64,000 bases of DNA, from contig NZ_CP017148.1 in NCBI RefSeq assembly GCF_001741865.1, positions 1-64,000 on the forward strand, written 5' to 3'. The notes below the pieces were generated by a model, which was not told the origin of the DNA, did not search any database, and saw only the letters and a list, made by a program, of their open reading frames with translations. Source of the stretch: Bosea vaviloviae. Lineage in GTDB: Bacteria > Pseudomonadota > Alphaproteobacteria > Rhizobiales > Beijerinckiaceae. The number at the start of each line of letters is the position of its first letter. Position 1 is the stretch's first letter. Of the stretch, positions 38,349 through 54,718 are shown in pieces. A program made the position numbers and the translations under genes.

Positions 38349-38945
38349 CTAAGCTCGCGATGCATACCTGTCGATGTTATCGTGAACTAGCTTCATCAAG
38401 CTATCCCTCGTGGGGTCACGCGAACCTGCCATCCATGCGGCGGCGAGAGGCAGACGACCTGTCGTATCCTCCTCCTCGAGAATCAAGGGAATGTATGTGA
38501 CGCCAGCAAGTGACATGCCCGAGATCCAACGAGGCACGAGCGCGAGCCCAAGCCCTGTCGACACGACATGTATAATTGTCTGCTTCTCGGTCGCAATTTG
38601 CGCTATACTTGGAACTCGCCCAAATTTTTCGAAGAGCTTGATCGTGACGTCATGACTGTGCGGGCGAGACCGCCGATCGGGAACGATCAGAGGCTCATTC
38701 ATGATGTCGCTTATTGACAATTTCTTGCGTCTGGCAAGCGGATGAGTCGATGGAACTGCCACAATAGGCGTTTCGTAAAGAAGATGACAAAAATCGAGGG
38801 TTGGCGGCACGTGTATAGGCGGCCTTAAAAACGCGACATCAACTCTGCCGGACATCAGTTTCGGCAAAAGTCGAATAGTTTTCTCTTCAACAAGTTCCAC
38901 CTCGATGTCAGGTCGTATCTGTCGAAATGTCCGTTGGGTGATCCG
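38349..38945 (-). pseudogene. LysR-type regulator remnant lacking its DNA-binding domain
   Basis: The reading contains the LysR effector domain: RPDIEVELVEEKTIRLLPKL, then GRVDVAFLRPP, VSTGLGLALVPRWISG and a normal end. The helix-turn-helix and linker, about 95 residues, are missing; the open frame starts at 38957 within what should be the effector domain. The plus-strand SnoaL-like remnant begins at the same place, so the regulator was cut by a rearrangement. It could not bind DNA as a LysR protein. Confidence 0.75.
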
Positions 38946-38949
38946 ATCG

Positions 38950-39216
38950 CTGGGCAACTATACGTCCGACATCCTTGTCATGATCGAGGAGGGTCATAGG
39001 GTGTCGGCAAAGCTGCGCTTTCACGGCCTTCACCGCGAGGCCATGTTCGGTCATGCGGCGACAGGGCGTCACGTTTGGTGGAACGGGACGCCGATTTTCA
39101 CCTTCGAAAGCCGCAAAGTTCGAGATTTGTGGGTTCTCGGGGACATCCAAGGTCTGATCGGACGCATTACTGAAAATGGCCCTGGAGACATCGAATTCGA
39201 GGTCGCCTCGCGCTGA
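38950..39216 (+). pseudogene. SnoaL-like/ester-cyclase family remnant, N-terminus missing
   Basis: Readable from about residue NYTSDILVMIEEGHRVSAKL through FHGLHREAMFGHAATGRHVW to FTFESRKVRDLWVLGDIQGL. This matches the C-terminal two thirds of the SnoaL-like polyketide cyclase/ester cyclase family (normally about 130-140 residues). The first 40-50 residues are absent and replaced by antisense sequence of the LysR remnant. It may be expressed from ATG 38905 as a fusion, but is most likely dead. Confidence 0.65.
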
Positions 39217-39564
39217 CCCCAAAACTGGGGGGTGGCCGGTCCGGCCGAACGTCCTACGACGCGCGCCGCCCTGCTGGGGCTCTATCCGCCAAGCCTTGAG
39301 AACAGGCCCGCTAACAGGCCATCAAGGCCGAGGGCTGAGAACTGCGACGGTCGGCGGCGAGCGGCGCCATCGTCAGCACGGCTCCGGCTTGCGGAGCATG
39401 CACGTTTCCCGCCACGTAATTGGCCGAAGCCACCCAACGCCTCGATAGGGAACCCATCGACGGGTGATCGACGGCATCAGACGACCTTGGCCGCCGCCGC
39501 ATCAAGCATGAGTTCGCCGACAAGATAGCCGCGTCCGTTCCATCGCATCGCTTTACGATCCCAA

Positions 39565-39690: not shown

Positions 39691-39806
39691 ATAGAGATAG
39701 AGTGGGCCAGTCCCGTTCGGTCTTCGTCACCCTCTGTTCCCTTGACCTTCGCCGCTGGACAGGCCGCCCGCAAACCAGCGGCAGAATGCCGAAGGTAACT
39801 CTTTAA

Positions 39807-39814
39807 AATCGATT
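39807..39814. promoter_or_regulatory. AATCGATT operator candidate 1a
   Basis: AATCGATT within the 10-bp palindrome AAATCGATTT (39806-39815), in AT-rich sequence 170 bp upstream of the dioxygenase gene. It is the distal member of a pair; the proximal member is 138 bp downstream. Six such sites mark the control regions of the O-demethylation block. Confidence 0.6.
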
Positions 39815-39935
39815 TATCTTCGAGCCGAATGATGCCGCGTCATGAAAAATCCCCGACATTTCCAAGGAAATTAGACATTATTGGCCCTATTTTCGGCGTG
39901 GCCGCGTAAGCACGCCCACGACGCAGGCAATCGCC

Positions 39936-39953
39936 TTGACAAATAATCGATTA
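39936..39953 (+). promoter_or_regulatory. Promoter -35 with AATCGATT operator candidate 1b
   Basis: TTGACA (39936-39941), two bases, then TAATCGATTA (39944-39953), a perfect 10-bp palindrome located in the -35/-10 spacer. The same TTGACA-NN-TAATCGATTA arrangement occurs on the minus strand at 44422-44405. A protein bound here would block RNA polymerase. It drives the dioxygenase-hydratase-aldolase operon starting at 39984. Confidence 0.7.
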
Positions 39954-39983
39954 AAAAAGAAGGTTTGGGCGAAGGAGTGAGAC

Positions 39984-40877
39984 ATGCTCATTGCAAGCGA
40001 GGCCGACGTAACTACCGCTACCCTGGACGTGATGGCGCGCACCGACGATCTACGACTGCGCGAGATACTGGTGTCGCTTGTTCACCATCTGCACGGCTTC
40101 GTCCGGGATGTGAGGCTGACGGAAGCGGAATTCCGGGAGGCCGTTGCGGTCCTCAACGAGGTCGGCCAGCTCGCTTCGGACACGCACAACGAAATGATGC
40201 TGATGGCAGGTTCGTTGGGCATCTCGTCCCTTGTCTGCCTGCTCAACAATGGCGATGGCGGAAACACCGAAACGTCGCAATCGCTGCTCGGCCCGTTCTG
40301 GCGCCTCGACTCTCCCCGGGTGGAGAACGGCGGCTCGATTCTCCGGTCCGACACCCAGGGCGACCCGCTTTTCGTGACGGCGCGGGTGATCGATGGCCAA
40401 GGCCGACCTATCGCTGGCGCGGAGGTCGATGTCTGGCATGCCTCGCCGGTGGGCCTGTACGAAAACCAGGATCCCGAACAGGCGGAGATGAACCTCCGCG
40501 GCAAGTTCACCACCGACGGAGACGGCCGCTTCTGGTTCCGGTCCGTGATGATGATCGGCTATCCGATCCCGACCAGCGGGGTCGTCGGGCGTCTTCTGAA
40601 GGCGCAGCGCCGCCACCCGATGCGGCCCGCACATCTGCACGCGCTGATCTTCAAGCCCGGCTTCAAGGTGTTGATCTCGCAGGTCTACGATCCCAACGAC
40701 CCCCATATCGACTCGGACGTTCAGTTCGGCGTGACGCGATCGCTGATCGGTGACTTCGTACGGCATCAGGAGCCGCATCCGGTGCAGCCGGATGTGGCCG
40801 GACCCTGGTATTCGCTCGACTACACCTATGTCATGGAACCGGGCGAGGCGATCCTGCCGCGCCCCCCGATTCGCTGA
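39984..40877 (+). CDS. Intradiol ring-cleavage dioxygenase (hydroxyquinol/catechol type)
   Basis: 297 residues; N-terminal helical domain (about 1-100) and Fe(III) catalytic domain. Iron ligands expected at Tyr159 (VGLYENQ), Tyr193 (IGYPIPTSG), His217 and His219 (RPAHLHA). It opens a catechol or hydroxyquinol ring between the hydroxyls. The segment after Tyr159 carries an insertion (QDPEQAEMNLRG) not seen in the 20302 paralogue, hinting at a different ring substituent. A GAAGGAG site precedes ATG 39984. It leads an operon with hydratase and aldolase genes usually tied to meta-cleavage products. Confidence 0.9.
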   Translation: MLIASEADVTTATLDVMARTDDLRLREILVSLVHHLHGFVRDVRLTEAEFREAVAVLNEVGQLASDTHNEMMLMAGSLGISSLVCLLNNGDGGNTETSQSLLGPFWRLDSPRVENGGSILRSDTQGDPLFVTARVIDGQGRPIAGAEVDVWHASPVGLYENQDPEQAEMNLRGKFTTDGDGRFWFRSVMMIGYPIPTSGVVGRLLKAQRRHPMRPAHLHALIFKPGFKVLISQVYDPNDPHIDSDVQFGVTRSLIGDFVRHQEPHPVQPDVAGPWYSLDYTYVMEPGEAILPRPPIR

Positions 40878-40893
40878 GACGAAGGACCAACCC

Positions 40894-41676
40894 ATGCTGA
40901 CGGAAGACGAACGGCGCGAGGCCGCCGCCGCGATCCTGCGGGCCGAACGGGACCGCGTCCCCTGCCCTCAGCTTTCGCGCACCTACCCGCATATGGAGAT
41001 CGAGGATGCCTACCGCGTGCAGGACATCTGGGCCCAGGCACGCATCGACGCGGGCGCACGGGTCGCCGGTCACAAGATCGGCCTGACCTCGCGCGCCATG
41101 CAGATGGCGTCGAAGATCAACGAACCCGACTATGGACGCATTCTCGACGACGCCTTGTACAATGACGGCGCGCAGATCCGCGCCGACCTGTTCATCAAGC
41201 CCAGGCTGGAGGTCGAACTGGCCTTCGTGATGAGCGAGGATCTGCAGGGTCCCAACTGTCGGATTTACGACGTCCTGCGCGCCACGGAGTTCGTCGTGCC
41301 GGCGCTCGAGATCATCGACTACCGGACCGAGGTACCGCGCGCGATCGTCGATACGATCGCCGACAATGCCGCGTTCGGGGCGATCGTCGTGGGCGGCCGG
41401 CCGATCCGCCCGATGGACGTCGACATCCGCTGGATCGGCGCGACGTTGGCGCTCAACGGCATCATCGAGGAATCCGGCGTTTCTGCCGCGATCATGGGTC
41501 ATCCCGCCGCCGGCGTGGCCTGGCTCGTCAACAAGCTGCACGCCGTCGGCGCCAAGCTCGAGAAGGGTCAGATCGTGCTGGGGGGATCGTTCACCCGGCC
41601 GGTGGACATCAAGCGCGGCGACGTGGTGACTGCCGATTACGGTCCGATCGGTGCGATTTCCGTTTCATTCGTTTGA
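40894..41676 (+). CDS. 2-oxo-hept-3-ene-1,7-dioate hydratase-like (HpaH/MhpD family)
   Basis: 260 residues. Family motifs: [20 protein letters not shown] near the start, metal-binding [12 protein letters not shown], and the ends [20 protein letters not shown] and ITLGGSFT-like [16 protein letters not shown]. In characterised relatives, a Mg2+-dependent enzyme adds water to a 2-oxo-enoate. Start ATG 40894 ([14 protein letters not shown]); the open frame upstream overlaps the dioxygenase gene. It lies 16 bp after the dioxygenase and 8 bp before the aldolase gene, so hydration then aldol cleavage is implied. Confidence 0.88.
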
Positions 41677-41684
41677 GGGCTGCC

Positions 41685-42446
41685 ATGGAACTGCCTCGCA
41701 ATCGCTTCAAGCATGACTTGCTGGCCGGCCGCCAGCAGATCGGGCTCTGGTGCTCGCTTCCGGGGTCGTATGCGGCGGAAGCCGTCGCAGGCGCCGGATA
41801 TGACTGGTTGCTGTTCGACACCGAGCATTCGCCCGGCGACCCCCTGACGGTCCTCCCCCAACTTCAGGCCGTAGCACCCTACGATGTGTCGGCGGTGGTC
41901 AGGCCAGCGTCGAACGATGTCGTGCTCATCAAGCGCTTTCTCGACTTTGGAGCACAGACGCTTCTCATCCCATATGTCCAGGATGCCGACGAGGCCGCCG
42001 CAGCCGTCGCGGCCACTCGCTATCCGCCGGCGGGTGTGCGCGGAGTGTCCGGGCTGACGCGGGCGACCCGGTTCGGCCGGATTCCCGGCTACGCAAAGCG
42101 CGCCACCGAAGAACTCTGCGTGCTCATCCAGATCGAGACGGTCGAGGCTCTGCAACAGATCGAGCGCATCGCTTGCGTCGAAGGCGTCGATGGGTTGTTC
42201 ATCGGCCCCGCCGATCTCGCCGCCAGTCTCGGATATGCCGGCGAGCCCGGCCATCCGTCGGTCGAGGCCGAGGTTCTCGCTGCCATCAGCCAAATCCGCG
42301 CGGCGGGAAAACCCGCCGGCATCCTGACGCCGGACGAGGCGTTCGCGCGCCGTTGCATCGCGGCAGGCTCGTCGTTTACCGCTGTAGCGATCGATGCCGG
42401 AATCCTTGCGCGCGGAACCGAGGCCGTCGCGGCCCGGTTCAGATAG
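41685..42446 (+). CDS. HpcH/HpaI-family aldolase (4-hydroxy-2-oxo acid aldolase)
   Basis: 253 residues, class II metal-dependent TIM barrel. Motifs: [20 protein letters not shown], then [14 protein letters not shown] with the catalytic His, [20 protein letters not shown] with the metal Glu, and [20 protein letters not shown] with the metal Asp. It splits 4-hydroxy-2-oxo acids to pyruvate (or a related oxo acid) plus an aldehyde. ATG 41685 follows GAGGGC; an upstream TTG is less likely. It ends 8 bp inside the convergent folD gene. Confidence 0.9.
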
Positions 42447-43314
42447 CGGCGGCGCCCGAACGCTGGCGTGCGGCCTTGAGCGTGTTTTGCAGCAGGTAGG
42501 CGATCGTCATCGGACCGACGCCGCCGGGGACGGGCGTGATGGCTCCAGCCCGGTCGCAGACCTCGTCGAAAGCGACGTCTCCAACCAGCCGGTATCCACC
42601 GTCTCTCGCAATGCGGTTGATGCCCACGTCGATGACGAGCGCGCCGCGCTTGATCCAGTCGCCGCGAACCATTTCCGGTTGGCCGGCCGCTGCGACGACG
42701 ACGTCCGCGGTGCGGCAAAGGTCCGCGATGTCGCGGGTGCGGGAATGGGCGATCGTGACCGTGCAGTTCTCGCCCAGAAGCAACTGAGCGAGGGGTTTTC
42801 CGACGATGTTGGACCGCCCCAAAACAACGGCATGCGCACCCGTGAGGTCGGGTTCGACGCTCTTCAGCAGATGGATGCAACCGAGCGGCGTGCAGGGCGA
42901 CAGGGCGCGCGTATCGCCCGTCGCAAGGCGGCCGGCATTGATCGGATGGAAGCCGTCGACATCCTTGGCGGGATCGACCGCCGACAGAAGCGCAGTCGCG
43001 TCGATGTGAGGCGGAAGTGGCAGCTGGACCAGGATCCCGTCCACGGCGAAGTCGTCGTTGAGAGTCTCGACCAATCGCATCAGCTGGTCTTGCGACACAA
43101 CTTCTGGAAGTCGATGCTCGAACGACTGCATCCCGGCGTCGACGGTTTGCCGCGCCTTCGCGCGGACGTAGACGGCGCTGGCGGGATCGTTTCCGACGAG
43201 CACGACGGCAAGGCCGGGCGTTCGGCCAGTCTTGCCGAAAGCCTCGACTTTCTCCTTGAGCTCAGCCCGCAACCCCGCGGCTATGGCTTTGCCATCGATG
43301 ATACGAGCTGACAT
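42439..43314 (-). CDS. folD: Bifunctional methylene-THF dehydrogenase/methenyl-THF cyclohydrolase
   Basis: 291 residues, typical FolD length. The active-site segment [19 protein letters not shown] has the conserved Tyr and Lys, [20 protein letters not shown], the NADP loop [20 protein letters not shown] and the end [20 protein letters not shown]. It oxidises 5,10-methylene-THF to methenyl-THF, then hydrolyses it to 10-formyl-THF. It lies 3 bp after purU and downstream of AATCGATT sites, so this copy probably serves methyl-group oxidation for the O-demethylase rather than biosynthesis. Confidence 0.95.
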
Positions 43315-43317
43315 GGC

Positions 43318-44184
43318 TTAGTCCCGGAAAACGACGGTCTTGGACCCGTTGCGCAAAACCCGACCGTCGAGATGCCAGGCTATCGCCCGGGATAGCACGC
43401 GCCGTTCAATGTCGCGTCCCTTGCGAACGAGATCGTCTGGCGTGTCGACGTGCGATATCCGCTCGACGTCCTGCTCGATGATCGGGCCCTCGTCGAGGTC
43501 GGAGGTGACGTAGTGGGCCGTCGCCCCGATCAACTTGACGCCCCGCTCGAACGCCTGGTGATAGGGCTTGGCCCCCTTGAAACCCGGTAGGAAGGAGTGG
43601 TGGATGTTGATGCAGCGATCCGCGAGCTTCGTTGCCAGATCGTCCGAAAGGACCTGCATGTACCGCGCCAGGATCACGAGGTCGGCACCCCGTTCCTGGA
43701 CGACCCGCCAGACCGCCGCTTCCTGCTCCGGCTTCGTCTCTTTGGTGATCGGCAAGTAGTCGAACGGGATGTCGCCGAACTCGTGGGCCGCGTAGGTCTC
43801 GCGCGGGTAGTTCGCGATGATGCCGACGATCTCCATGTCGAGTTCGCCCATCCGCCAGCGATACAGGATATCGGTCAGGCAGTGATCGAAACGGGAGACC
43901 ATGATGACGACGCGCTGCTTCTCGCGGCGCGGACGCATCGTCCAATCCATGCCGAACGTCGTGGCGACCTCGGCGAAGCTCTGGCGAAGTTCATCCGGCG
44001 ATGCCGCATCGGATAAGAGACCGAAGCGGACACGCATAAAGAAGCGCCCGGTCTCCTCGTCGTCGAACTGCTGGGCGTCCTGGATGTTCGCGTCGTGCAG
44101 GAACAGGTGCGTGGCGACTTTCGCCACGATGCCCGGGCGGTTTCGGCACGACAGGGTAAGGAGATGCGTATCGGTCGTGGTCAT
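43318..44184 (-). CDS. purU: Formyltetrahydrofolate deformylase
   Basis: 288 residues. N-terminal ACT domain ([20 protein letters not shown]) and C-terminal formyl-transferase-like hydrolase domain with [40 protein letters not shown] (catalytic Asn/His) and [16 protein letters not shown] (catalytic Asp). It hydrolyses 10-formyl-THF to formate and THF, which recycles THF for O-demethylation. ATG 44184 is the family-like start; the open frame extends to 44223. It is the first gene of the purU-folD operon. Confidence 0.95.
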
Positions 44185-44240
44185 TTGATTTCCCCCGCGC
44201 GATCGCGCGTACCTCCGGCGCATGATCTGGGCCGCCTAGG

Positions 44241-44259
44241 CGTCAATAAAAATCGATTT
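44241..44259 (-). promoter_or_regulatory. AATCGATT operator candidate 2a
   Basis: AAATCGATTT (44250-44259) is a perfect 10-bp palindrome. On the minus strand it is followed by TTA and TTGACG (44246-44241), the same spacing as site 3a near 51385. It lies 66 bp upstream of the purU start. Confidence 0.6.
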
Positions 44260-44404
44260 CTTTGGCAAGGCAGTCGCACACGAGCTGCACATGAGTTTCA
44301 TCGCCCCGCGCTTGTGAGAGCAAAATTCCATTGCATATTTAGATGCCATGCCCACTCTTATTTCCGAGCCAGGCCCAGCTGATTGCCGCTTTCGTTCTCT
44401 TCAA

Positions 44405-44422
44405 TAATCGATTATATGTCAA
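44405..44422 (-). promoter_or_regulatory. Promoter -35 with AATCGATT operator candidate 2b
   Basis: On the minus strand, TTGACA (44422-44417), two bases, then TAATCGATTA (44414-44405), the same geometry as site 1b. It points toward purU-folD, and lies 207 bp upstream of the divergent gntR start, so it could also provide autoregulation. Confidence 0.68.
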
Positions 44423-44620
44423 CACCCGGACGAACCAGAGCTGGCAGCGGGTTGCTGCCGGTGCGGCAAGAGGATGCCGGCTGCGCTGTCGCACCGACAT
44501 CGGGTTTGCTAAGCAGGGATGTTCAGCGGCCAGATGTTAGGTCGCCAAGTGGCAGGTGGCGGGCAACGCCATTGGGAACGGTCAGTCGGCTCCGTCGAGC
44601 CAAACAACCGGAGGAACTCC

Positions 44621-45445
44621 GTGGCGAAGGCCAGTCGCACCAAAGCTTCACATTCCCCTTCGGTTGATGGGCAGCAACTGGCTACCTCGGCGATGCCCGC
44701 TGCCGGCGGGAGCGGGGAGAACGGCAAGAACACGATCTCGACGCGCCTCGTCTCGCGGATGCGGGAGGCCATCCTGCAGGGCGAGCTTCCGCCGGGTTCG
44801 AAGATCAACCTCGACAAGGCACGAAGAACATTCGACGTAAGCCTGAGCCCGATGCGGGAGGCTCTGGCCCGGCTGACCTCGGTCGGCCTCGTCGAACTTC
44901 ACGACAATCGCGGTTACTCGGTGGCGCCCGTATCGCTGGCGAACCTGCGAGAGATCACGCAACTCCGCGCCGAGTTCGAATGCCTCGCCCTCGACATCGC
45001 CATGCAGAACGGCGACCTCGCCTGGGAAAGCGGGATCACGAGGGCGTTGCACAAGTTGAACCGCATCCATCGCGAGGCGTCTGATACGGCGAGCCTCGAA
45101 GCCTGGGAGGATGCCCACCGGGACTTCCACCTCACCCTGATCCAGGGGTGTGGCATGCCGATCCTGCTCAATTTCTGCACGACGCTGCACAATCTGAACG
45201 ATCGCTACAGGCGGATTTTCCTCACCCGCACTGGAGGCGACGCCGACGTCGAGCAGGAGCACAATCAAATCGCCCAAGGCGCCGTTGCCCGCGATCGGGA
45301 CTATGCGCGCGACAGGCTGCGCGAGCACATCCTAAGAACCGGACGCAATTTGCAAAATGCGTTGTCCGACGAACGCGCGGGCGCAATCCTCGCTCCTGGC
45401 CAACCCAAGCGCAGGCGGTCGGCAGGAGCTAGGTCAGACGCTTAG
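44621..45445 (+). CDS. GntR-family regulator with FCD domain (VanR-like architecture)
   Basis: 274 residues. Winged helix at about 37-105 (TRLVSRMREAILQGELPPGS, then FDVSLSPMREALARLTSVGL with the recognition helix) and an all-helical FCD effector domain at about 110-250, with the metal-site His of FCD proteins in EAWEDAHRDFHLTLIQGCGM. The likely start is GTG 44621, preceded by GGAGG; the frame is open to 44519. FCD regulators often repress aromatic or organic acid pathways until ligand binds. It lies centrally among the operons carrying AATCGATT sites and is their probable regulator. Its 3' end overlaps the convergent livF-like gene by 12 bp. Confidence 0.9.
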   Translation: MAKASRTKASHSPSVDGQQLATSAMPAAGGSGENGKNTISTRLVSRMREAILQGELPPGSKINLDKARRTFDVSLSPMREALARLTSVGLVELHDNRGYSVAPVSLANLREITQLRAEFECLALDIAMQNGDLAWESGITRALHKLNRIHREASDTASLEAWEDAHRDFHLTLIQGCGMPILLNFCTTLHNLNDRYRRIFLTRTGGDADVEQEHNQIAQGAVARDRDYARDRLREHILRTGRNLQNALSDERAGAILAPGQPKRRRSAGARSDA

Positions 45446-46147
45446 GTAGCGCCCCTTGAGAGAGGGCTCGGACAGGAAAGCCTGCGACGGCCCCGACCAC
45501 ACCGTACGCCCCTTCTCGATGATGTGATGTCGGTCCCCGACTTCCATCATCTGCCGCAGGTTGCGGTCTATGACCAGGATCGAAAGACCTTCTGACTTCA
45601 GCTGGCGCAACGCGCTCCAGATGACATCGCGCACGATCGGGGCCAATCCTTCCGTCGCCTCGTCGAGGATCAGCAGATCCGGATTGATCATGAGCGCGCG
45701 GCCGACGGCGAGCATCTGCTGCTCGCCGCCGGAAAGCTGCGAGCCCCAGTTGCCGAGCCGCTCCCCAAGGCGGGGAAACAGCGCGAGCACGCGCTCGAGC
45801 GTCCAGGGATCGGGCCGACCGGAACGGTTGGCCGCCGCGGCGACGAGGTTCTCCCGAACCGTCAGGTTGGGAAAGATGCGGCGGCCTTCGGGAACGAGCC
45901 CGATGCCCATCCGCCCCAAGAGGTGCGAGGGCGTCGACCGAATGGACCGCCCCTTGAAGATGATATCCCCGCCCAAGGTCGGAAGCTGGCCGGTGACCGC
46001 GCGCACGGTCGTCGTCTTGCCCATGCCGTTGCGGCCGAGCAGTCCCACCATCTCGCCCGGGCCCACCGTCAGCGAGACGTCGAACAGGATCCGGGACTGT
46101 CCGTAGGAAGCCTGCACCGCCTCCAGCCGCAGCAAACTTTCGGTCAT
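45434..46147 (-). CDS. Liv-type ABC transporter ATP-binding protein (LivF-like)
   Basis: 237 residues. Walker A GRNGMGKTT (with Met in place of the common Ala), LVPEGRRIFPNLTVRENLVA, signature LSGGEQQMLAVGRALM and Walker B LLILDEATEGLAPIVRD, where Ala replaces the usual Pro in DEP; such substitutions are common in LivF. Last gene of the livK-pobA-livHM-livG-livF operon; its start overlaps the livG-like stop by 4 bp. Confidence 0.92.
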   Translation of the reverse strand: MTESLLRLEAVQASYGQSRILFDVSLTVGPGEMVGLLGRNGMGKTTTVRAVTGQLPTLGGDIIFKGRSIRSTPSHLLGRMGIGLVPEGRRIFPNLTVRENLVAAAANRSGRPDPWTLERVLALFPRLGERLGNWGSQLSGGEQQMLAVGRALMINPDLLILDEATEGLAPIVRDVIWSALRQLKSEGLSILVIDRNLRQMMEVGDRHHIIEKGRTVWSGPSQAFLSEPSLKGRYLSV

Positions 46148-46905
46148 GCGGCGTCTTCCTGTTCATGCCCCAGATAGGCTTCCCGCACGCTGGCGTTCGA
46201 TCTGATTTCCTGGGGTGTGCCGGAGGCTACGAGGCGTCCGCCGACGAGAACGCTCACGGTGTCGGCCAGGTTGAAGACTGCGTCCATGTCGTGCTCCACG
46301 AGGACGATCGTGTAGTCGGCCCGCAGGGAGCCGAGGAGGTCGATCATGCGCTCGGCCTCAGCCGGTCCCATGCCCGCCATGGGCTCGTCGAGCAGCAGGA
46401 CGCGCGGCTGCATCGCCAAGGCGATCGCCAGCTCCAGCTGCCTGCGCTGGCCATGCGACAGCACCCCGGCGGGGACATCTCCGAAATCGGCAAGACCGGT
46501 TTGTTCCAGCACGGATCGCGTGGCGTCCGCCAGCGCCCGCACGCGTCGCGGCGCCTGCCAAAAGCGAAAACCATGTCCTTCCCTGATTTGAGCCGCGACG
46601 ACGACGTTGTCGAAAACCGAGTAATCGTCGCAGACGCTCGTGATCTGGAAGGACCGCAGGATGCCTAATCGGGCCCTCCCGCCCAGGTCGGCCGACGTAA
46701 CGTCGCGTCCCTCGAAGTGGATCTGCCCCGCCGTTGGCCTCAACTCGCCCGAAAGCTGTGACAGCAAGGTCGTCTTGCCGGCGCCGTTGGGCCCGATCAG
46801 GGCATGGCAGGTGAGCTCTCGTATCGCCAGCGTCACGTCGTCGGTTGCGGTGAGGCCGCCGAACCGCTTGGTCAGTCCCCTTGCTTCCAGGATGGTCGCC
46901 GTCAT
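46144..46905 (-). CDS. Liv-type ABC transporter ATP-binding protein (LivG-like)
   Basis: 253 residues. Walker A GPNGAGKTT, Q-loop LRSFQITSVCDDYSVFDNVV, signature LSHGQRRQLELAIALA and Walker B VLLLDEPMAGMGPAEAERM. ATG 46905 (MTATILEARGLTKRF) overlaps the fused permease stop by 4 bp; the longer open frame upstream is shadow of the permease gene. Confidence 0.92.
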   Translation of the reverse strand: MTATILEARGLTKRFGGLTATDDVTLAIRELTCHALIGPNGAGKTTLLSQLSGELRPTAGQIHFEGRDVTSADLGGRARLGILRSFQITSVCDDYSVFDNVVVAAQIREGHGFRFWQAPRRVRALADATRSVLEQTGLADFGDVPAGVLSHGQRRQLELAIALAMQPRVLLLDEPMAGMGPAEAERMIDLLGSLRADYTIVLVEHDMDAVFNLADTVSVLVGGRLVASGTPQEIRSNASVREAYLGHEQEDAA

Positions 46906-48821
46906 GTACTGCCACCCCGCCCCAGCACCAATCCGAAGAGCCCGCGTCGCGCAAGCAGGACGAAGACGATGAGCATCGGGCCGAACACGATCTGCCAATG
47001 CTGCGTCCATTCGCTCAGGGTGAATTCCAGCATGAGATAGGTCGCCGCCCCCACGACGGAGCCGAACAGCGTCCCCAGGCCTCCGAATATGGCCATGATC
47101 AGGATGCTGCCCGAGCGGGTCCATGACAGGTCCGCCGGGCTGACCAGCAGCTCGCTATTGGCCAACAGCACGCCGGCGATGCCTGCGATCACACCCGAAA
47201 TGACGAAGAGCAGAAGCTTGTAGAAGTAGGTCCTGACCCCGAGCGCCCTGACGCGTCGTTCGTTCTGCCTGCAGGCCTGCACGATCATGCCAAAGCGCGA
47301 ATTGACCAGACGCCAGCATAGCAGGAGGCACAGCGCCAACAGACCGAGTGCGAGGTAATATAGCGTTGGCCGGTTTCCGAGGTCGATGAGCGGCAGGGTC
47401 GAGCGTTGCGAGATCTGCAGGCCGTCCTCGCCCCCGTATATGCTGGGGGTGCTGGCGAGATAAAACAGCATCTGAGCGAAGGCCAGCGTGCTCATGATGA
47501 AGTAGAGACCGCTCGTCCTGAGCGCGATGGCCCCGATCACCAGTGCCATCGCCGCCGCGCTCGCGATCGCCAGCGGCCAGGCGACCAGCGCGTCGTGCGT
47601 GCCTGCCAGCACGATCGGCCCCAACGCCAAGGGCTCGCCGTGGTCGAGGTGCCAGCCGAGGATCGCGACGGCATAGGCGCCCGTACCGACGAATGCGGCA
47701 TGACCGAAGCTGACCAGGCCGCCGAAACCCGCGACGAGATCGAGGCTCAGGACCATCAGCGCAAAGATCACGATCCGCAGGAACAGCCTCAGAAGGAATG
47801 GGTCGTCGAGCCAGGTCGAGAGCGTCGGCACGAGCGCGAGCGCGATCATGCACAGTCCCACGACCGACGCTGTCACACGTTGCCGCGACTTGGAGAGCGA
47901 CCAAAGGATCGTGACCCGGTTTCCGTTGTCGCGAGCCTCGACCTGCGGCGGAGCCGACGCCGCAAAAAGGCCTTGTGGCCTGACGAACAGAACCCCGGCC
48001 ATGAAGATGTAGATTGCAATCGTCGCGATGGCGGACGGCAGGAAAAGGCGGCCGAGCGTGTCGATGAGGCCGATGACGATCGCGGCGTAGAAGGCGCCCT
48101 TGAGAGAGCCGATTCCGCCGACCACGATCACGACGAGCGCCATGATGAGGATGTTCTCCCCCATCCCGACGTTGACGGAGTAGAGCGGCCCCGACATCAG
48201 GCCAGCCAAGGCGGCCAGGGCCGCCCCGAAAGCGAATACGAGAGAGTAAAGCCACGTGATGTTCACGCCAAGAACGGCGATCATCCCGCGATCCGAGGCG
48301 CCGGCCCTGATGAGCATCCCAAGGCGCGTCCGCATCACGACGAACGACATTCCCGCTGCCACGACGAGCCCCACGCCGATCACGGTCAAGCGAAAGAGCG
48401 GATATTGGAGCCCGGGCAGCAGCGTCACGCTCCCATTGAGCAGTTGCGGGATCGGAGACGCGAGTGGTTGGGGACCGAAAATCAGTCGCATGGACTCGTT
48501 GAAGAGGTAGATGAGTCCGAACGTCACCAGCACCTGATCCAGATGGCTACGCGCATAAAGCCGCCTGGCACAGACGTACTCGACGGCCAGGCCTGCAACG
48601 GCGGCGCAAAGGCAAGCCCCCACCGCGGCGATGACGAACGATCCCGTCCATAGCTGGAGCGATACGGCCGCGAAGGCCCCGATCATGTAGAACGAGCCGT
48701 GCGCCAAGTTGACGAAATTCATGATGCCAAGGACCAGGGTCAGGCCCGACGCGATCAGGAACAACATCACGCCGGACTGGAGGCCGTTGAGCATCTGTTC
48801 GATAAGGAGTGGCAATGTCAT
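46902..48821 (-). CDS. Fused Liv-type ABC permease (LivH-LivM)
   Basis: 639 residues, about twice the normal permease length. Residues 1 to about 290 are LivH-like (SGLTLVLGIMNFVNLAHGSF, then ALVVIVVGGIGSLKGAFYAA), and about 310-639 are LivM-like (LVAGFGGLVSFGHAAFVGTG, and FGGLGTLFGSVVGAATYLML near the end). The two half-channels are thus one polypeptide, joined by a hydrophilic linker around DNGNRVTILWSLSKSRQR. The frame is continuous with no sign of sequencing error. It works with the flanking ATPases and the binding protein encoded after pobA. Confidence 0.93.
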   Translation of the reverse strand: MTLPLLIEQMLNGLQSGVMLFLIASGLTLVLGIMNFVNLAHGSFYMIGAFAAVSLQLWTGSFVIAAVGACLCAAVAGLAVEYVCARRLYARSHLDQVLVTFGLIYLFNESMRLIFGPQPLASPIPQLLNGSVTLLPGLQYPLFRLTVIGVGLVVAAGMSFVVMRTRLGMLIRAGASDRGMIAVLGVNITWLYSLVFAFGAALAALAGLMSGPLYSVNVGMGENILIMALVVIVVGGIGSLKGAFYAAIVIGLIDTLGRLFLPSAIATIAIYIFMAGVLFVRPQGLFAASAPPQVEARDNGNRVTILWSLSKSRQRVTASVVGLCMIALALVPTLSTWLDDPFLLRLFLRIVIFALMVLSLDLVAGFGGLVSFGHAAFVGTGAYAVAILGWHLDHGEPLALGPIVLAGTHDALVAWPLAIASAAAMALVIGAIALRTSGLYFIMSTLAFAQMLFYLASTPSIYGGEDGLQISQRSTLPLIDLGNRPTLYYLALGLLALCLLLCWRLVNSRFGMIVQACRQNERRVRALGVRTYFYKLLLFVISGVIAGIAGVLLANSELLVSPADLSWTRSGSILIMAIFGGLGTLFGSVVGAATYLMLEFTLSEWTQHWQIVFGPMLIVFVLLARRGLFGLVLGRGGST

Positions 48822-48900
48822 CGATGACGTTTCCTCAGCGTCCCGAGCCGTCGCAGTGACAGCGTCTTGGGCTCCGGCCAGGTGGCGCCAGCATGCGCGC

Positions 48901-50067
48901 TCAGTTCAGCGGAAGCCCCGTGTAGTTTTCCGCGAAGGACAAAGCCGCATGCCGGTTTTCCACGATGTGCCTGAGAGCCGCGAGGTTAAGCGCTTGCTCG
49001 AAAGGACTGTCCGACACGTGGAGGGCATGGGTGATCCATGCCGAGAACCGCTGCACCTGCCAGACGCGACGCAGGCATCTCTCGGAATAGCCGTCGATGC
49101 CCGATCGGTCGCCATTCCCGAAATACCGCTTCAGCGCGTCGCCTAGCACCGCGACGTCCGCGGCAGCCAGATTGAGCCCCTTTGCTCCGGTCGGCGGCAC
49201 GATATGGGCGGCGTCACCTGCGAGGAACAAGCTGCCATGCCGCATCGGCGCAGCGACGAAACTGCGTAGATGGATGGTCGAACGCTGGGTGATCGCTCCC
49301 TCGCGTAGAGGCACGGGTTCGCCGTCGCGCAACCTGAGATCGAGCTCCGACCAGACCTGGTCGTCCGACCAAGCTTCCGCATCAACATTCATCGGCACCT
49401 GAGCGTAGATGCGACTGACGGTCGGGGAGCGCATCGACATCAGCGTGAAGCCGCGTTCATGCGCCGCGTAGATCAGCTCATGGCTAGGAGGCGGTGTTTC
49501 CACCATGAGGGCGAGCCACTTGTAGGGATAGTCCTGCTCCCAGATCCTCAGGTCCCCGGAAGGCAGCGCCTGCCTGCTCGGGCCATGGAAGCCGTCGGCG
49601 CCGACGACGAATCGGCATGCGATGGTTTCGCGTGCGCCATTCCGCTCGACCGTTATCGTGGGCGCGTCCGAATCTATGCCGCTCAGCTCGACGACTGGGG
49701 TTTCGAAAAGGATCGGATCGCCGGCGCCTAGCCTCGCGGACACGAGATCGGCGACGAGCTTGTGCTGCGGATAGATCGTGATACCGCGACCGACCAGTTC
49801 CATGAGATCGAGGCGATGAGTTCGGCCCTCGAAGCGGAGAGCAGTACCCTCGTGGACGATGCCCTCCTTGAGCGCCCCATCCGCGACGCCGGCCTCGCGC
49901 AGGATGTCCACGGTCCCCGCCTCGATGACCCCAGCCCTGATCCGGTTCTCGATATAGGCCCGGCTGCGGCTTTCGACGACGATACTCTCGATGCCGGCAC
50001 ACTTCAGCAGCTGAGCAAGAAGCAACCCGGCCGGACCGGCGCCAACGATGGCGACTTGAGTCTTCAT
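48901..50067 (-). CDS. pobA: 4-hydroxybenzoate 3-monooxygenase
   Basis: 388 residues, standard PobA length. FAD motif VAIVGAGPAGLLLAQLLKCA, family sequence ENRIRAGVIEAGTVDILREA, HRLDLMELVGRGITIYPQHK, DG motif VVGADGFHGPSRQALP and GD motif FLAGDAAHIVPPTGAKGLNL. The enzyme hydroxylates 4-hydroxybenzoate to protocatechuate with NADPH and O2. It is embedded between the importer's binding-protein gene and its permease gene, so the operon takes up and hydroxylates the same class of compound. A close homologue with another para-hydroxy acid substrate is possible. Confidence 0.93.
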   Translation of the reverse strand: MKTQVAIVGAGPAGLLLAQLLKCAGIESIVVESRSRAYIENRIRAGVIEAGTVDILREAGVADGALKEGIVHEGTALRFEGRTHRLDLMELVGRGITIYPQHKLVADLVSARLGAGDPILFETPVVELSGIDSDAPTITVERNGARETIACRFVVGADGFHGPSRQALPSGDLRIWEQDYPYKWLALMVETPPPSHELIYAAHERGFTLMSMRSPTVSRIYAQVPMNVDAEAWSDDQVWSELDLRLRDGEPVPLREGAITQRSTIHLRSFVAAPMRHGSLFLAGDAAHIVPPTGAKGLNLAAADVAVLGDALKRYFGNGDRSGIDGYSERCLRRVWQVQRFSAWITHALHVSDSPFEQALNLAALRHIVENRHAALSFAENYTGLPLN

Positions 50068-50165
50068 GTTTTGTCAGTTCCGCGAGCCCGGGTGCCAGCC
50101 TGGGCTCCGGAAGTTTCCATGTCGTTCCATCGAGGGTCGTCGCACGCGGCCGCTATCGGCGCAGC

Positions 50166-51323
50166 TCAATCCTTGATCGGACATTTCTCGGCCAACTCGT
50201 CCTTGAGATTGGGCAAGGTGGCCCTCACCGTGTAGCTCAATCCCGTGCTCGATCGCTCGATCTTCGTGACGTAGAAGTTCTGGATGGGAAACTGGTTCGA
50301 GGCGAAGCTGAATGCTCCTCGCACGGACGGGAAGGGCGTCGTCTTCATCGCCGCCCGGAGGGCGTTCATCTCGGTCTTGCCGCCATTGCCTCGCAAGGCG
50401 GCATCGAGAAGGACGGGGAGGTCGTAGGCCTGGGCCGCAAAGGCGCTCGGCGTCCGACCATATGCCTCGCGGAAGGAGGTGACGAAGCGCTTGTTTTCAG
50501 GATTGTCGAGCTGTTCGGTCCACAGGCTGACAACGTTGGTCCCTGCAACCTCTGGCCCGACCTGCGTCAACATGATGTGATCAAGCGCCAGATAGGATCC
50601 GACCACCCGATCCATGGCGTACCCGACCTGGGTGAGCTGCTTCAGAAAGTTCACCCCGACCTGGCTGGGGTAGAAATAATAGAGCCCATCGACGTCCAGG
50701 GCCTTGAGGGAGGTAATCTCCGCGGCGAAGTCCTGCTGGGACGGCGGCGTGTAGATCTCCTTGACGACCGTGCCGGGAAAGGCCTGCTTGAAACCTGCCG
50801 CGAGGTCGCGCGCGCCGGGCGTGTTCCACCCCATCATGGCGATTTTCGAGAATCCGAGCTCCTTCGCCGCCATGCCGGTGGCCCGGCCAATGGTCTGGTT
50901 CTCGAAGCCCAGGACGAAGAAATTGGGACTGCACTTCTCTCCGGCGAAATCGGAAGGTCCGGAGTTGATGCTGACGAGGAGACGCTTGGCATCGCTGACC
51001 GGCTTGGCGGCGGCCAGGAGCATATTCGTGATGATTGGACCCGTCACGAGATCGACGCGCTCCCGTTCGACAAGCCGTTCTGCAGCCTGCCGAGCGACGT
51101 CGGGCTTCTCCTGATCGTCCGCGACGATCACTTTCACGTCGTTACCGGCGATCTTCCCGCCCAGATTTTTGATGCTGAGGTTGAAGGCGTCGATCATATC
51201 GCGAGCAACAGGCGCCTGAGAGCCGGTCACGCTCGTAACAAAACCGATCTTCAGCTCGGCGGCGGGCGCCAGCGCAGGCAATGACGCCGATGCCAGAGCG
51301 AGAAACAGGGTCCTGATCTTCAA
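50166..51323 (-). CDS. ABC transporter substrate-binding protein (Liv type)
   Basis: 385 residues. Signal peptide LKIRTLFLALASASLPALAP ending at PAA, then ELKIGFVTSVTGSQAPVARD. The middle contains DLVTGPIITNMLLAAAKPVS and FFVLGFENQTIGRATGMAAK, as in receptors for aromatic acids in Hyphomicrobiales. The start chosen is TTG 51323, preceded by AGGGAGG at a good distance; an ATG at 51407 in frame lies upstream of the operator and is unlikely. First gene of the pobA-containing importer operon. Confidence 0.9.
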   Translation of the reverse strand: MKIRTLFLALASASLPALAPAAELKIGFVTSVTGSQAPVARDMIDAFNLSIKNLGGKIAGNDVKVIVADDQEKPDVARQAAERLVERERVDLVTGPIITNMLLAAAKPVSDAKRLLVSINSGPSDFAGEKCSPNFFVLGFENQTIGRATGMAAKELGFSKIAMMGWNTPGARDLAAGFKQAFPGTVVKEIYTPPSQQDFAAEITSLKALDVDGLYYFYPSQVGVNFLKQLTQVGYAMDRVVGSYLALDHIMLTQVGPEVAGTNVVSLWTEQLDNPENKRFVTSFREAYGRTPSAFAAQAYDLPVLLDAALRGNGGKTEMNALRAAMKTTPFPSVRGAFSFASNQFPIQNFYVTKIERSSTGLSYTVRATLPNLKDELAEKCPIKD

Positions 51324-51374
51324 AGCAACCTCCCTATCGTTATTTTGGGCGAAGCTAGCCACGGACCCGAAACC

Positions 51375-51392
51375 CGTCAACAAAAATCGATG
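51375..51392 (-). promoter_or_regulatory. AATCGATT-like operator candidate 3a
   Basis: AATCGATG at 51385-51392, one mismatch from the AATCGATT motif. On the minus strand it is followed by TTTTTG-type spacing and TTGACG (51380-51375), matching the layout of site 2a. It lies 62 bp upstream of the TTG start of the binding-protein gene. Confidence 0.5.
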
Positions 51393-51512
51393 AAATTGCC
51401 GATACATGTTTCGTGCACCTCGCCAAAATGGCCCGCACCACCCTACTATGGCTTGTTATAGCGAGAGATGGCGGCGCTTGCCGCGCATCAGCGAACGGTG
51501 TAGAACACAAAA

Positions 51513-51520
51513 AATCGATT
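51513..51520. promoter_or_regulatory. AATCGATT operator candidate 3b
   Basis: AATCGATT followed by A, in the A-rich sequence upstream of metF (start 51589). It is 128 bp from site 3a, repeating the paired arrangement of the other two control regions. It would control metF-ligM. Confidence 0.6.
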
Positions 51521-51588
51521 ATCATGCGCTGCACCCGCAGCGATAACGATCCGGCGCCTCGTGCCGGCGTCGATGGCGAGATCTTCGG

Positions 51589-52458
51589 ATGAGCGACTCC
51601 TATCTTCAGCCCGCTCGAAGCTACGGCACGCTGGGCAGCCTGATCGAAGGCTTCTCGCTGGAAATGACGGCGCGAGACGCGGACGTCCTCGCCGAGGCCG
51701 TCGGCGACTTGCCGGCCGCCACGCGGATCGCCGTCACCTATCTGCCCGGCGAAGAGATGGCCGCGCGCGTGGCTGCCGCAGCATCGATCCGGAACTATGG
51801 CCACATACCCGTCCCGCACATCTCGGCCCGCCGGCTCACCAGCGTCCTGGAGCTGGAAAGTTTCCTGGACCGGCTTTCCATCGAAGCGTCCATTGATCGC
51901 GCCTTCGTCGTCGGCGGCGATCTGCGCGCGCCTGCAGGTCCCTATCCCGATGCGAAGTCCGTGATCGCATCGGGCTTGCTGGCGAAGTACGGCTTGTCGA
52001 GAATTGGTGTCGCCGGGTATCCCGAGGGGCATCCGTCCATATCGGAGCACGATCTGATGCTCGACTTGCGCACGAAACTCGCGATGTTACGCGATCTCGG
52101 CCACGAAGGCGTCGTGAACACCCAATTCTCGTTCGATGCGGAGGCCATCCTGCAGTGGCTCGAAGCGCTCCGAAACGACGGCGTGACGGCCACGGTTCGG
52201 GTGGGCATCCCCGGCCCGACGACGGTGAAATCGCTCTTGCGGTTCGCGGCGCGGTGCGGCGTCGGGGCATCCACTGCGGTGCTGCAGAAATACGGCATAT
52301 CGCTGACAAAGCTGCTGTCGCCGGTCGGACCGGACCGACTGCTTGCAGAACTCGGCGCTCGGCTCAACGCCGAAAGGCACGGCGACGTGAGGTTGCATTT
52401 CTATCCATTCGGCGGGCTGGCTGGGACGGCACGCTGGGCGAAGACGCTCGTCCGCTGA
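51589..52458 (+). CDS. metF: Methylenetetrahydrofolate reductase-like protein
   Basis: 289 residues of the MetF TIM-barrel family: SLEMTARDADVLAEAVGDLP at the start, AFVVGGDLRAPAGPYPDAKS, IGVAGYPEGHPSISEHDLML and VVNTQFSFDAEAILQWLEAL (flavin and folate contacts). In biosynthesis the enzyme makes 5-methyl-THF; next to a THF-dependent O-demethylase it more likely runs in reverse, oxidising 5-methyl-THF to 5,10-methylene-THF. The usual AHLTC-like segment reads VPHISARRLT here, showing a divergent branch. It is 65 bp upstream of the ligM-like gene. Confidence 0.88.
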   Translation: MSDSYLQPARSYGTLGSLIEGFSLEMTARDADVLAEAVGDLPAATRIAVTYLPGEEMAARVAAAASIRNYGHIPVPHISARRLTSVLELESFLDRLSIEASIDRAFVVGGDLRAPAGPYPDAKSVIASGLLAKYGLSRIGVAGYPEGHPSISEHDLMLDLRTKLAMLRDLGHEGVVNTQFSFDAEAILQWLEALRNDGVTATVRVGIPGPTTVKSLLRFAARCGVGASTAVLQKYGISLTKLLSPVGPDRLLAELGARLNAERHGDVRLHFYPFGGLAGTARWAKTLVR

Positions 52459-52523: not shown

Positions 52524-53918
52524 ATGAACCAAGTCACGGGACAGCCGTCGCTCGAGGAATTTCTGAAGGGCATCCCCGATCTCGTCGATTACTTCTACAA
52601 CGACACCACCGCACCCCACAGCAAGGACCGATCGGGCCTGACACCGGTGCCGGCCGAGTTCGGCAACTGGGTCGACGAGCAGAAGGCCTGGCGCGACGGT
52701 GCGGTCCTGTTCGACCAGTCGCATCACATGCCGGAGATGTTCCTCAAGGGACCGGACGCCTTTCGAATGCTCAACCGCATCGGCATCAACAGCTTCGACA
52801 AGTTCGTACCGGGCAAGGCCAAGCAATTCGTCGCGTGCAATCACGATGGGCACATGATCGGCGAGTGCGTCTTGTTCTATCTGGCCGAGAACAGCTTCGA
52901 GCTGGTCAGCGGCATGCACATGCAGAACTGGGTCGAGTACCACGCCACGACCGGCGGCTACGACGTGACCATCGAGCGCGACCTTCCCACCTCGGTTAAC
53001 CCGCGAGGCCGCACCCAGTTTCGTTTCGGCCTGGATGGACCTGCGTCGGACGAGATTTTCGCCGCCGTCGTCGAGGGGCCGGTGCCGAACATCCCCTTCT
53101 TCAATTTCGCCCGGGTCAGGATCGCGGGTTGCGACGTGTTGGCGCTTCGGCACGGCATGGCCGGGGGCCGTGGCGTCGAGCTGGGGGGCCATATCGCGGA
53201 CGGCCCCAAGGTGCGAGAGGCCTTGCTCAACGCGGGCGCTACGCTCGGACTGCGGCCCGGCGGGACCTCCGCGTATTTCAGCGGCAACACGGAAGGCGGC
53301 TGGATGCCCTATCCGCTGCCGGCCGTCTATACCGGCACCGAGCTTAAGGCCTACCGCGAGTGGCTGCCTTCGAGCTCGTGGGAGACCAGCTCTCAACTCG
53401 GGGGCAGTTTTCGCGCCCAGAAGATCGAGGACTACTACGTCACGCCATGGGACATGGGTTACGATCGGATCTTGAAGTTCGATCACGATTTCATCGGTGG
53501 CGAGGCTCTTCGGCGGGCGGCGGAAGGCCCACGCCGGACGGCCGTGACCTTGGTCTGGAACGTGGACGATGTCGTCGACATCTTTCGGTCCCAGCTCGAA
53601 GACGAGTTGCCTTACAAGCAGCTGCGCTTCCCGATGGCTTCCTACAGCTTCCAGCAAAACGACGAGGTCCGCGACGCCAGCGGCGATCTAATCGGCCTTT
53701 CGAATTTTTGCGGATACAGCGCCAACGAACGACGGGTCATGTCGCTCGCGAACGTCGCTCGCGACAAAGCTACGCCGGGGTTGGACGTCACGGTGACCTG
53801 GGGCGAACCCGACGGTGGGTCACGCAAGCGCCACGTCGAGCGGCATCGGCAAAAGATCGTTCGTGCGCAAGTCGCGCCTTGGCCTTACGCAATGGCGTCC
53901 CAGCGCCGTCCGACGTGA
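52524..53918 (+). CDS. ligM: Tetrahydrofolate-dependent aromatic O-demethylase (LigM-like, GcvT fold)
   Basis: 464 residues, close to LigM (vanillate/3-O-methylgallate O-demethylase, about 470). It is a GcvT-fold aminomethyltransferase-family protein. Segments in common with LigM by my recall include EQKAWRDGAVLFDQSHHMPE (DQ and paired His at 64-68), LRHGMAGGRGVEL, GNTEGGWMPYPLPAVYTGTE, LKAYREWLPSSSWE, GGSFRAQKIEDYYVTPWDMG and KFDHDFIGGEAL. It moves an aryl methyl group to THF, yielding a phenol and 5-methyl-THF. The gene shares an operon with metF; folD, purU and pobA lie within 10 kb. The aromatic substrate (vanillate, syringate, methoxyhydroquinone) is not certain. Confidence 0.87.
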   Translation: MNQVTGQPSLEEFLKGIPDLVDYFYNDTTAPHSKDRSGLTPVPAEFGNWVDEQKAWRDGAVLFDQSHHMPEMFLKGPDAFRMLNRIGINSFDKFVPGKAKQFVACNHDGHMIGECVLFYLAENSFELVSGMHMQNWVEYHATTGGYDVTIERDLPTSVNPRGRTQFRFGLDGPASDEIFAAVVEGPVPNIPFFNFARVRIAGCDVLALRHGMAGGRGVELGGHIADGPKVREALLNAGATLGLRPGGTSAYFSGNTEGGWMPYPLPAVYTGTELKAYREWLPSSSWETSSQLGGSFRAQKIEDYYVTPWDMGYDRILKFDHDFIGGEALRRAAEGPRRTAVTLVWNVDDVVDIFRSQLEDELPYKQLRFPMASYSFQQNDEVRDASGDLIGLSNFCGYSANERRVMSLANVARDKATPGLDVTVTWGEPDGGSRKRHVERHRQKIVRAQVAPWPYAMASQRRPT

Positions 53919-54223: not shown

Positions 54224-54718
54224 ATGCCCAAAGCGCCCCGCCCCCCGGCCGCGAATGTCCAAGGGACCAAGATGTCCGGGGAGTATGACGAACGTTTCTT
54301 CCCGGCAGTCTTCAAGGAGGTCGTGGGCTTTCATTTGCGGATCGCACAGGAGGCCTCGTTCGAGGCGTTCGGTGTGATGGCAGGAAAGGCCAACCTGAAG
54401 CCAGGTTGGTACGCTTTGCTTACGATATTGAACGAGGCGGGATCCATGACGCCAAGTGAACTCAGCAAGCATTGTGGACGTGACCGCTCGACTTTGACCT
54501 CGACATTGAAAGCACTCGCCGCACGAGAGCTTATTCAACGGGAACGCAAATCCGATGATCAACGCAGCTACGAAGTCAGACTAACTGCCGTCGGCTTCGA
54601 TATTCAACGTCGCCTGCATGCGATCGCCATAGAGCACGAGCGCCGCCTTGATGAAATACTTGGACAGGACAAAGACATGCTGCTCGCAATGCTGCGCAGG
54701 ATCGCATCGCGCATCTAG
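54224..54718 (+). CDS. MarR-family transcriptional regulator
   Basis: 164 residues. The winged helix is visible as MTPSELSKHCGRDRSTLTST, LKALAARELIQRERKSDDQR and SYEVRLTAVG, with the DDQRSYEVRL wing typical of MarR. ATG 54224 is used; ATG 54272 (MSGEYDERFF) is an alternative. It precedes the TRAP transporter operon on the same strand by 110 bp, and probably controls that operon through the palindrome at 54748-54761. Confidence 0.9.
   Translation: MPKAPRPPAANVQGTKMSGEYDERFFPAVFKEVVGFHLRIAQEASFEAFGVMAGKANLKPGWYALLTILNEAGSMTPSELSKHCGRDRSTLTSTLKALAARELIQRERKSDDQRSYEVRLTAVGFDIQRRLHAIAIEHERRLDEILGQDKDMLLAMLRRIASRI

Follow-up and report, generated by a model that had tools for sequence, protein, structure and literature searches.

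The locus and its paired palindromes

The first 64 kb of a 339,755-bp contig (C2) of Bosea vaviloviae, referred to here as the window, carry a gene cluster arranged around gntR, a gene for a regulator of the FCD subfamily of GntR proteins. The genome (G000) comprises two contigs and 6,713,548 bp. As predicted from protein families, the cluster encodes enzymes and a transporter for aromatic compounds together with enzymes of folate metabolism, and its four outward units are served by three control regions, each holding two copies of a short palindrome that is the candidate operator in question (Table 1). Region A precedes the dioxygenase operon, Region B lies between purU-folD and gntR, and Region C separates livK-pobA from metF-ligM.

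Table 1. Candidate operators, promoter elements, and genes of the cluster, in window coordinates
Feature	Position	Strand	Basis or remark
Region A distal operator, TTAAAATCGATTTA	39807..39814		motif count; 138 bp from the proximal operator
Region A TTGACA (39936-39941), then proximal operator ATAATCGATTAA (39943-39954)	39936..39954	+	would serve the dioxygenase-hpaH-hpaI operon
Intradiol dioxygenase	39984..40877	+	nearest solved relatives PnpC and hydroxyquinol 1,2-dioxygenase
HpaH-type 2-oxo-hept-4-ene-1,7-dioate hydratase	40894..41676	+	TIGR02312 above cut-off; annotation of the Bosea vestrisii copy
HpaI-type aldolase	41685..42446	+	profile matches
folD, methylene-tetrahydrofolate (methylene-THF) dehydrogenase/cyclohydrolase	42439..43314	-	annotation of related copy and profile match
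purU, formyl-THF deformylase	43318..44184	-	start taken at 44184
Region B operator near purU, AAAATCGATTTC	44251..44258		motif count
Region B TTGACA (44422-44417), then ATAATCGATTAT (44404-44415)	44404..44422	-	dioxygenase-type promoter facing purU
gntR, proposed repressor	44621..45445	+	274 aa, GTG start; GntR winged helix-turn-helix (41-101), FCD (111-237)
Branched-chain-amino-acid-type ABC transporter, two ATPases and one fused permease	45434..48794	-	profile matches, annotated copy
PobA-like flavin hydroxylase	48901..50067	-	profile matches, annotated copy
livK-type substrate-binding protein	50166..51362	-	profile matches
Region C near-match operator AATCGATG (51385-51392), adjoining livK -35 TTGACG (51380-51375)	51375..51392	-	read from sequence
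Region C operator AAAATCGATTAT, overlapping -10-like TATCAT (51520-51525) upstream of metF-ligM	51511..51525	+	read from sequence
Divergent MetF-like methylene-THF reductase	51589..52458	+	profile matches, annotated copy
LigM/DesA-like THF-dependent O-demethylase	52524..53918	+	best models below curated cut-offs

An earlier, sequence-only reading had described six palindromes, paired in three control regions, as the mark of one regulon. All six are present at the positions it gave, but strictly speaking five are exact copies of AATCGATT (39807, 39945, 44251, 44406, and 51513) and the sixth, at 51385, is a near-match. The three regions are non-coding, and the spacings of 138, 155, and 128 bp follow from the coordinates. 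Two further exact copies had been overlooked, at 136 and 18928; both are intragenic according to script-called genes and have no A/T flanks. The seven exact copies in the window compare with a mean of 1.45 in shuffled sequence, and 0/100 shuffles reach seven.

The bare 8-mer is not rare, with 70 copies in the genome and 14 on C2, and the seven of these that lie on C2 beyond the window do not show the A/T flanks of the 12-bp form. What is rare is the 8-mer with these flanks: the 12-bp pattern WWAATCGATTWW occurs only six times in 6.7 Mb, at 39805, 39943, 44404, and 51511 of the window and at C1:1206213 and C1:1206398, and all six copies fall inside two gntR clusters. The sites at 44251 and 51385 narrowly miss the pattern. 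The enrichment check put forward with the sequence-only reading thus finds the extended motif confined to two related clusters. Likewise, all five places in the genome with at most one mismatch to the consensus ATAATCGATTAT lie inside these clusters.

Some neighboring genes deserve mention in their own right. Next to the dioxygenase operon lies a broken-looking LysR gene (38349-39260, minus strand), with a LysR effector domain but no intact in-frame N-terminal helix-turn-helix. The frame at 46902-48794 matches both LivH/UrtB and LivM/UrtC permease models and is thus a fused permease. A MarR-family gene (54224-54718) directly follows ligM and is also found beside the B. vestrisii copy of the cluster, and an integrase-core gene of the insertion-sequence transposase type (62239-63231) lies near the right end of the window.

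Linkage of the palindrome to gntR

The second gntR cluster of this genome is chromosomal and represents the half of the regulon that the sequence-only reading, limited to the three window regions, did not include. Its GntR paralog (C1:1206546) is 68% identical to that of the window and divergent from a second dioxygenase-hpaH-hpaI operon, whose products are 78, 80, and 73% identical to those of the window. The gap between them contains both remaining WWAATCGATTWW sites. The same arrangement, with two exact sites per gap, is found in the genomes G008, G001, G032, G006, and G053, and in the loci of this type named here the dioxygenase-hpaH-hpaI operon is 77-80% identical to that of the window. 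In G112 and G062 the gap holds one exact site and AATCGTTT, while in G055, G005, G035, and G084 it holds no exact site, showing AATAATCGAT(A/G/C)AT-type and AATAATCGTTTATT sites instead.

The plasmid-type cluster of the window occurs in four more genomes (L032, L033, L034, and L035), and its sites are conserved in all three regions wherever sequence covers them, the livK-metF region of L034 being read from plasmid record L175. L035 has AATCGATG as one member of its dioxygenase pair and TATCGATT on the purU side. The window cluster shares 93.7% identity over 96% of 14.3 kb with a Bosea vestrisii plasmid, and annotated copies on two Bosea plasmids carry identical gene names. Across 67 Bosea genomes, ATAATCGATTAT occurs at 12 places, every one of which precedes an orthologous or paralogous gntR match by 56-318 bp (209 bp for the site at 44404).

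The linkage extends well beyond the genus. Relatives were taken as the best 80 of 192 retrieved from 84,980 species genomes, VSLSP being one of two search patterns, and a site was counted if it had at most one mismatch, at least three of four A/T flanks, and a position within 1150 bp upstream of gntR. Such a site precedes the gntR operon in 80/80 relatives, with four A/T flanks in 79 (all but L163), and the expectation of the sequence-only reading that the motif be conserved in orthologous clusters is thus borne out. For 63 other palindromes of equal composition the median was 2 of 80 loci. The highest were AAACGTTT (42 loci), 44/46 of whose matches coincide with operator sites, and TATCGATA (31 loci), for which the figure is 8/34 and much of the remainder resembles the conserved gntR -10 (TATCGA, then TC); all the rest stayed at 14 or below. 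At a stricter threshold, 141 matches fell in the 1150 bp upstream, against 13 elsewhere in 942 kb.

At 17 of these 80 loci, mostly from Bradyrhizobium and Tardiphaga, gntR follows one other gene in its operon (an amidohydrolase at the single locus that was scanned with Pfam). The site is then found in the promoter region of that leading gene, about 0.85-1.1 kb upstream of gntR, and no other 12-mer of equal quality was found in these loci. In Pigmentiphaga, Bordetella, and other Betaproteobacteria, the site accompanies a GntR protein without the dioxygenase. The site is absent from 11 of the 13 more distant relatives (L018-L030) and degenerate in the other two (L023 and L024). An order-wide scan for the TTGAC-operator arrangement returned 29 places in 23/397 genomes, 10 of them paired, in G000, G112, G366, and G467, and the other 19 single.

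Taken together, the 12/12 ATAATCGATTAT copies upstream of gntR, the 80/80 relatives, and the restriction of WWAATCGATTWW to the gntR clusters make the palindrome very probably the operator of this FCD-GntR protein, which supports the claim of one regulon under its control. A chance origin of the sites is ruled out by the shuffles, the genome count of WWAATCGATTWW, and the gntR linkage across Bosea and the relatives.

It is highly improbable that AATCGATT serves another regulator, be it a LacI-type protein, the MarR protein encoded after ligM, or a GntR resembling Atu1419 of Agrobacterium fabrum. LacI-type operators have such a CG centre, and a LacI-type gene on C2 (224,992-226,032) has GCACAATCGATTGCGC upstream, yet no LacI-type protein appeared in the Pfam scan of part of the window genes. 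In Sphingobium SYK-6 the MarR-type DesR represses ligM, as the available part of the source describes (PMC6888825), yet DesR-type and Atu1419-type palindromes were looked for in the three regions and not found, the only match to the DesR-like repeat GTTTGTGTNACATAC being at 38493, outside them and with 3 mismatches. The joint occurrence of motif and gntR among the relatives also speaks against such a regulator.

Two similar sequences stand apart from these clusters. The form TAAATCGATTTA recurs in many Bosea genomes without a close gntR (for example, at G012:C1:3172903 and G009:C2:4369389, with none in G000) and is perhaps the site of another regulator. The GCACAATCGATTGCGC copy at G000:C2:224929 (L059:929), between another dioxygenase homologue (57%) and the LacI-type gene, is probably a LacI operator with a common 8-bp core.

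Promoter architecture and operator spacing

The position of the operator relative to promoter elements was counted in 56 divergent loci of the 80, the operon and betaproteobacterial types being omitted. In 45/56 the operator lies within the spacer of a gntR promoter of the form TTGAC(A)-N17-TA, and the TA follows the 17-bp spacer in 45/45 (N17 being fixed beforehand). On the dioxygenase side, TTGACN, one nucleotide, and the 12-mer follow each other in 52/56, as they do at 39936. Both arrangements that the sequence-only reading had seen to repeat are present in the window: TTGACA-NN-TAATCGATTA at 39936 and, on the minus strand, from 44422, and ATCGATTTTT-R-TTGACG on the minus strand at 44250 and 51390. 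Across the five genomes with the plasmid-type cluster, the latter is kept at livK in 5/5, but at purU in this window only (1/5).

The sites themselves are well preserved among the five genomes, where AAAATCGATT (Region A, distal), ATCGATTT (Region B, near purU), and AATAATCGATTAT (Region B, gntR side) are kept in 5/5, and the 20-mer GTCAACAAAAATCGATGAAA that includes the near-match site is identical in 5/5. At the metF operator, L035 has TATAAT in place of TATCAT. The near-match abuts a livK promoter, TTGACG-N17-TAGCTT, whose TAGCTT (51357-51352) lies 17 bp past the -35.

Overall, the operator positions fit repression, and livK could also be activated. A GntR protein that activates at the sites adjoining a -35 (livK and the purU-proximal site) and represses elsewhere is quite unlikely. 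The livK operator does occupy an activator-like position, conserved in 5/5, but a protein bound beside the -35 can obstruct polymerase as well, the arrangement at purU is not conserved, and the precedents, Atu1419 and CsiR, are repressors in the available parts of their descriptions.

The sequence-only reading had left looping and dual promoters as alternatives for the pairs. At Region A, the spacing is 138, 139, 139, 139, and 139 bp in the five genomes, while the interval has an ungapped identity of 26-46% and its alignments need several indels in each direction. This spacing therefore appears to be selected, and its constancy despite turned-over intervening DNA favors looping by the Region A pair. 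That the pairs are merely independent operators at two promoters per region, without any loop, is a serious contender that falls somewhat short of an even chance. Divergent genes flank Regions B and C, each site adjoining one of these genes, and the two sites can simply serve two promoters; the Region B spacing differs by 15 bp among genomes; and Pseudomonas putida CsiR also has two protected regions in one divergent intergenic region, according to the available part of its description (PMC6667623). Against it, the distal site of Region A has no recognizable promoter beside it in the window and no conserved divergent gene, yet stays at its distance in 5/5 through compensating indels. At Region C, the spacing (128, 129, 128, 128, and 129 bp) is perhaps selected, the intervening DNA being better conserved than in Region A. 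In the relatives, operator distances bunch at 162-166, 171-175, 183-185, and 193-194. Tandem operator-like sites with a spacing of about 18 bp (19 in L168) were observed in relatives of the operon and betaproteobacterial types (L152, L165, L169, L170, L160, L162, L172, and L168), an arrangement not seen in the window.

Several points weigh against repression and looping by this GntR protein. What the sequence shows is the association of motif and gntR, the site positions, and the constant spacing, whereas binding, repression, looping, and the inducer are inferred. The 80 relatives are not independent, several being genomes already present in other comparison sets. The looser WWAATCGATTWW occurs in 49/67 Bosea genomes, many without a close gntR and often as TAAATCGATTTA, so the 12-mer by itself is no proof of regulation. 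The -10 boxes on the dioxygenase side of the divergent loci are poor. The Region B spacing varies (155, 142, 142, 140, and 154 bp), which speaks against a loop there and suggests that it is not under selection. In the plasmid cluster, the TTGACA at 44422 points toward purU and no clear promoter directed at gntR was seen; the case for autoregulation is weaker there than for the chromosomal type. Finally, the helical phase, analyzed in 41 of the 80 loci, is inconsistent, with a best period of 10.1 for the 41 loci and of 11.05 for 24 groups, and helical phasing across the relatives is only suggestive.

The regulator, its proposed action, and known systems

The window protein belongs to the GntR superfamily, FCD subfamily (PF00392, 45.4 bits, cut-off 27; PF07729, 64.5 bits, cut-off 24.3). 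In its predicted model, with a mean predicted local distance difference test score (pLDDT) of 79.7, the effector domain has six helices (106-130, 133-148, 156-175, 180-204, 210-222, and 226-249) rather than seven, and VanR-group structures outrank FadR and NanR in Foldseek, whose list is led by PmiR, Atu1419, a Brucella GntR, and McbR; as modelled, the protein is thus a member of the VanR group. Residues H166, H170, H214, and H236 are invariant in 38 sequences. Metal-binding FCD domains use three His plus Asp/Asn as ligands, and here H166 replaces the usual Asn/Asp. The consensus ATAATCGATTAT has no GT/AC pair of the GntR/FadR signature NyGTNxACNy.

The recognition helix begins at Leu75 in the model, a residue that aligns with Arg45 of Atu1419, the reported reader of the operator G (PMC7797058, available part). 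Leu occupies this position in 80/80 relatives, partly as an effect of selection, VSLSP being a search pattern. A rule by which Leu at the arginine position means AATCGATT was rejected: L020 and L026 (GLSP) and L027 (SLSP), 36-39% identical, have the Leu but no site in the stretch examined, whereas L016 and L017 (SLSP; 50 and 42% identical) do carry one. Leu alone therefore does not set the specificity, and a co-change of Leu75 and the operator base is suggestive.

In all likelihood, A(T/A)AATCGATT(A/T)T is the operator through which the protein encoded at 44621-45445 represses the four outward units, and looping is favored at the dioxygenase operon. Without inducer, a GntR dimer at each site would block dioxygenase-hpaH-hpaI, purU-folD, livK-pobA and the liv transporter, and metF-ligM, and would also bind between purU and its own gene. 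The block would come from binding between -35 and -10 (dioxygenase and purU) or on the -10 (metF), the livK site abutting the -35. In Region A, the second, promoter-less operator at 138-139 bp would allow a small DNA loop to be closed by a single tetramer or a pair of dimers. Such a regulon would serve to take up a methoxylated aromatic, to O-demethylate it, and to hydroxylate and cleave its ring, together with a one-carbon drain from methyl-THF through methylene-THF and formyl-THF to formate. The chromosomal paralog, with the same operator, would control the second dioxygenase operon, and cross-talk is expected.

For the inducer, N5,N10-methylene-THF is an unlikely candidate, although metF, folD, purU, and ligM would all be in the regulon and this compound is described as releasing Atu1419 in the available part of the source (PMC7797058). 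In the 80 loci, with flanks of up to 6 kb, PurU/FolD relatives occur in two and no MetF or LigM relative was found, while the dioxygenase, HpaH, and HpaI are usual, which makes a ring-cleavage metabolite the likelier ancestral inducer.

The sequence-only reading was thus right in the main, and the system appears larger than it stated, with a second cluster in this genome and an operator that extends across the clade. It can tentatively be proposed, with somewhat less confidence than an even chance would give, that a VanR-group clade of Alpha- and Betaproteobacteria gave up the G-reading arginine and came to read AATCGATT, and that the Bosea plasmid member gathered a methoxy-aromatic pathway, its uptake, and the one-carbon drain under one operator, with a loop at 138-139 bp. 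The operator, and hence the regulon, offers a testable prediction for a widespread GntR group beside aromatic ring-cleavage genes, uncharacterized in the literature searched: open-access PMC literature, covered for AATCGATT with GntR, for longer forms of the motif, and for GntR together with intradiol dioxygenase/HpaH/HpaI or with O-demethylase/tetrahydrofolate, yielded no description of this operator. Protein and operator would provide an example from nature of how DNA specificity changes within one of the largest families of bacterial regulators, the fixed operator spacing makes FCD-GntR looping easy to test, and the coupling of O-demethylation to folate one-carbon recycling under one switch could be useful for lignin conversion.

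Among other known regulators, the FadR-subfamily GntR motifs (Suvorova et al. 2015, PMC4494728) likewise include, in the part of that survey available, an A/T-rich palindrome for an FCD protein, and BioR (TTATMKATAA) is known to depart from GT/AC; the window operator has none of the common TKGT/ACMA boxes. CsiR (PRK11534) is the best NCBIfam model for the window protein, at 121.3 bits below the equivalog cut-off of 218, and the paired sites recall its two protected regions, but P. putida CsiR is described as controlling a glutarate regulon, unlike the window cluster (PMC6667623). DesR resembles the window system in its target, a ligM-metF operon, and differs in being a MarR protein with a 15-bp inverted repeat (PMC6888825). 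The closest known system is Atu1419, described in the available part of its source as a tetrameric, looping VanR-group FCD-GntR repressor of a metF-like gene and vanillate O-demethylase, whose short palindromes come in pairs, spaced 190 and 109 bp, with one palindrome located between the -35 and -10 of the repressor's own gene (PMC7797058). The window shares with it the VanR-group FCD protein, the paired palindromes, the metF-like and THF-dependent O-demethylase targets, and the operator between -35 and -10, here at dioxygenase and purU, and this precedent of paired operators, autoregulation, targets, and loops is counted in favor of repression with looping by the window GntR. The two proteins are only about 24% identical, with Arg45 against Leu75; the operators are ATGTATACAT and AATCGATT, with a G and an A, respectively, three bases from the dyad; and, as far as the available description goes, the window regulon adds the dioxygenase, hydratase, aldolase, purU-folD, Liv-type transporter, and hydroxylase.

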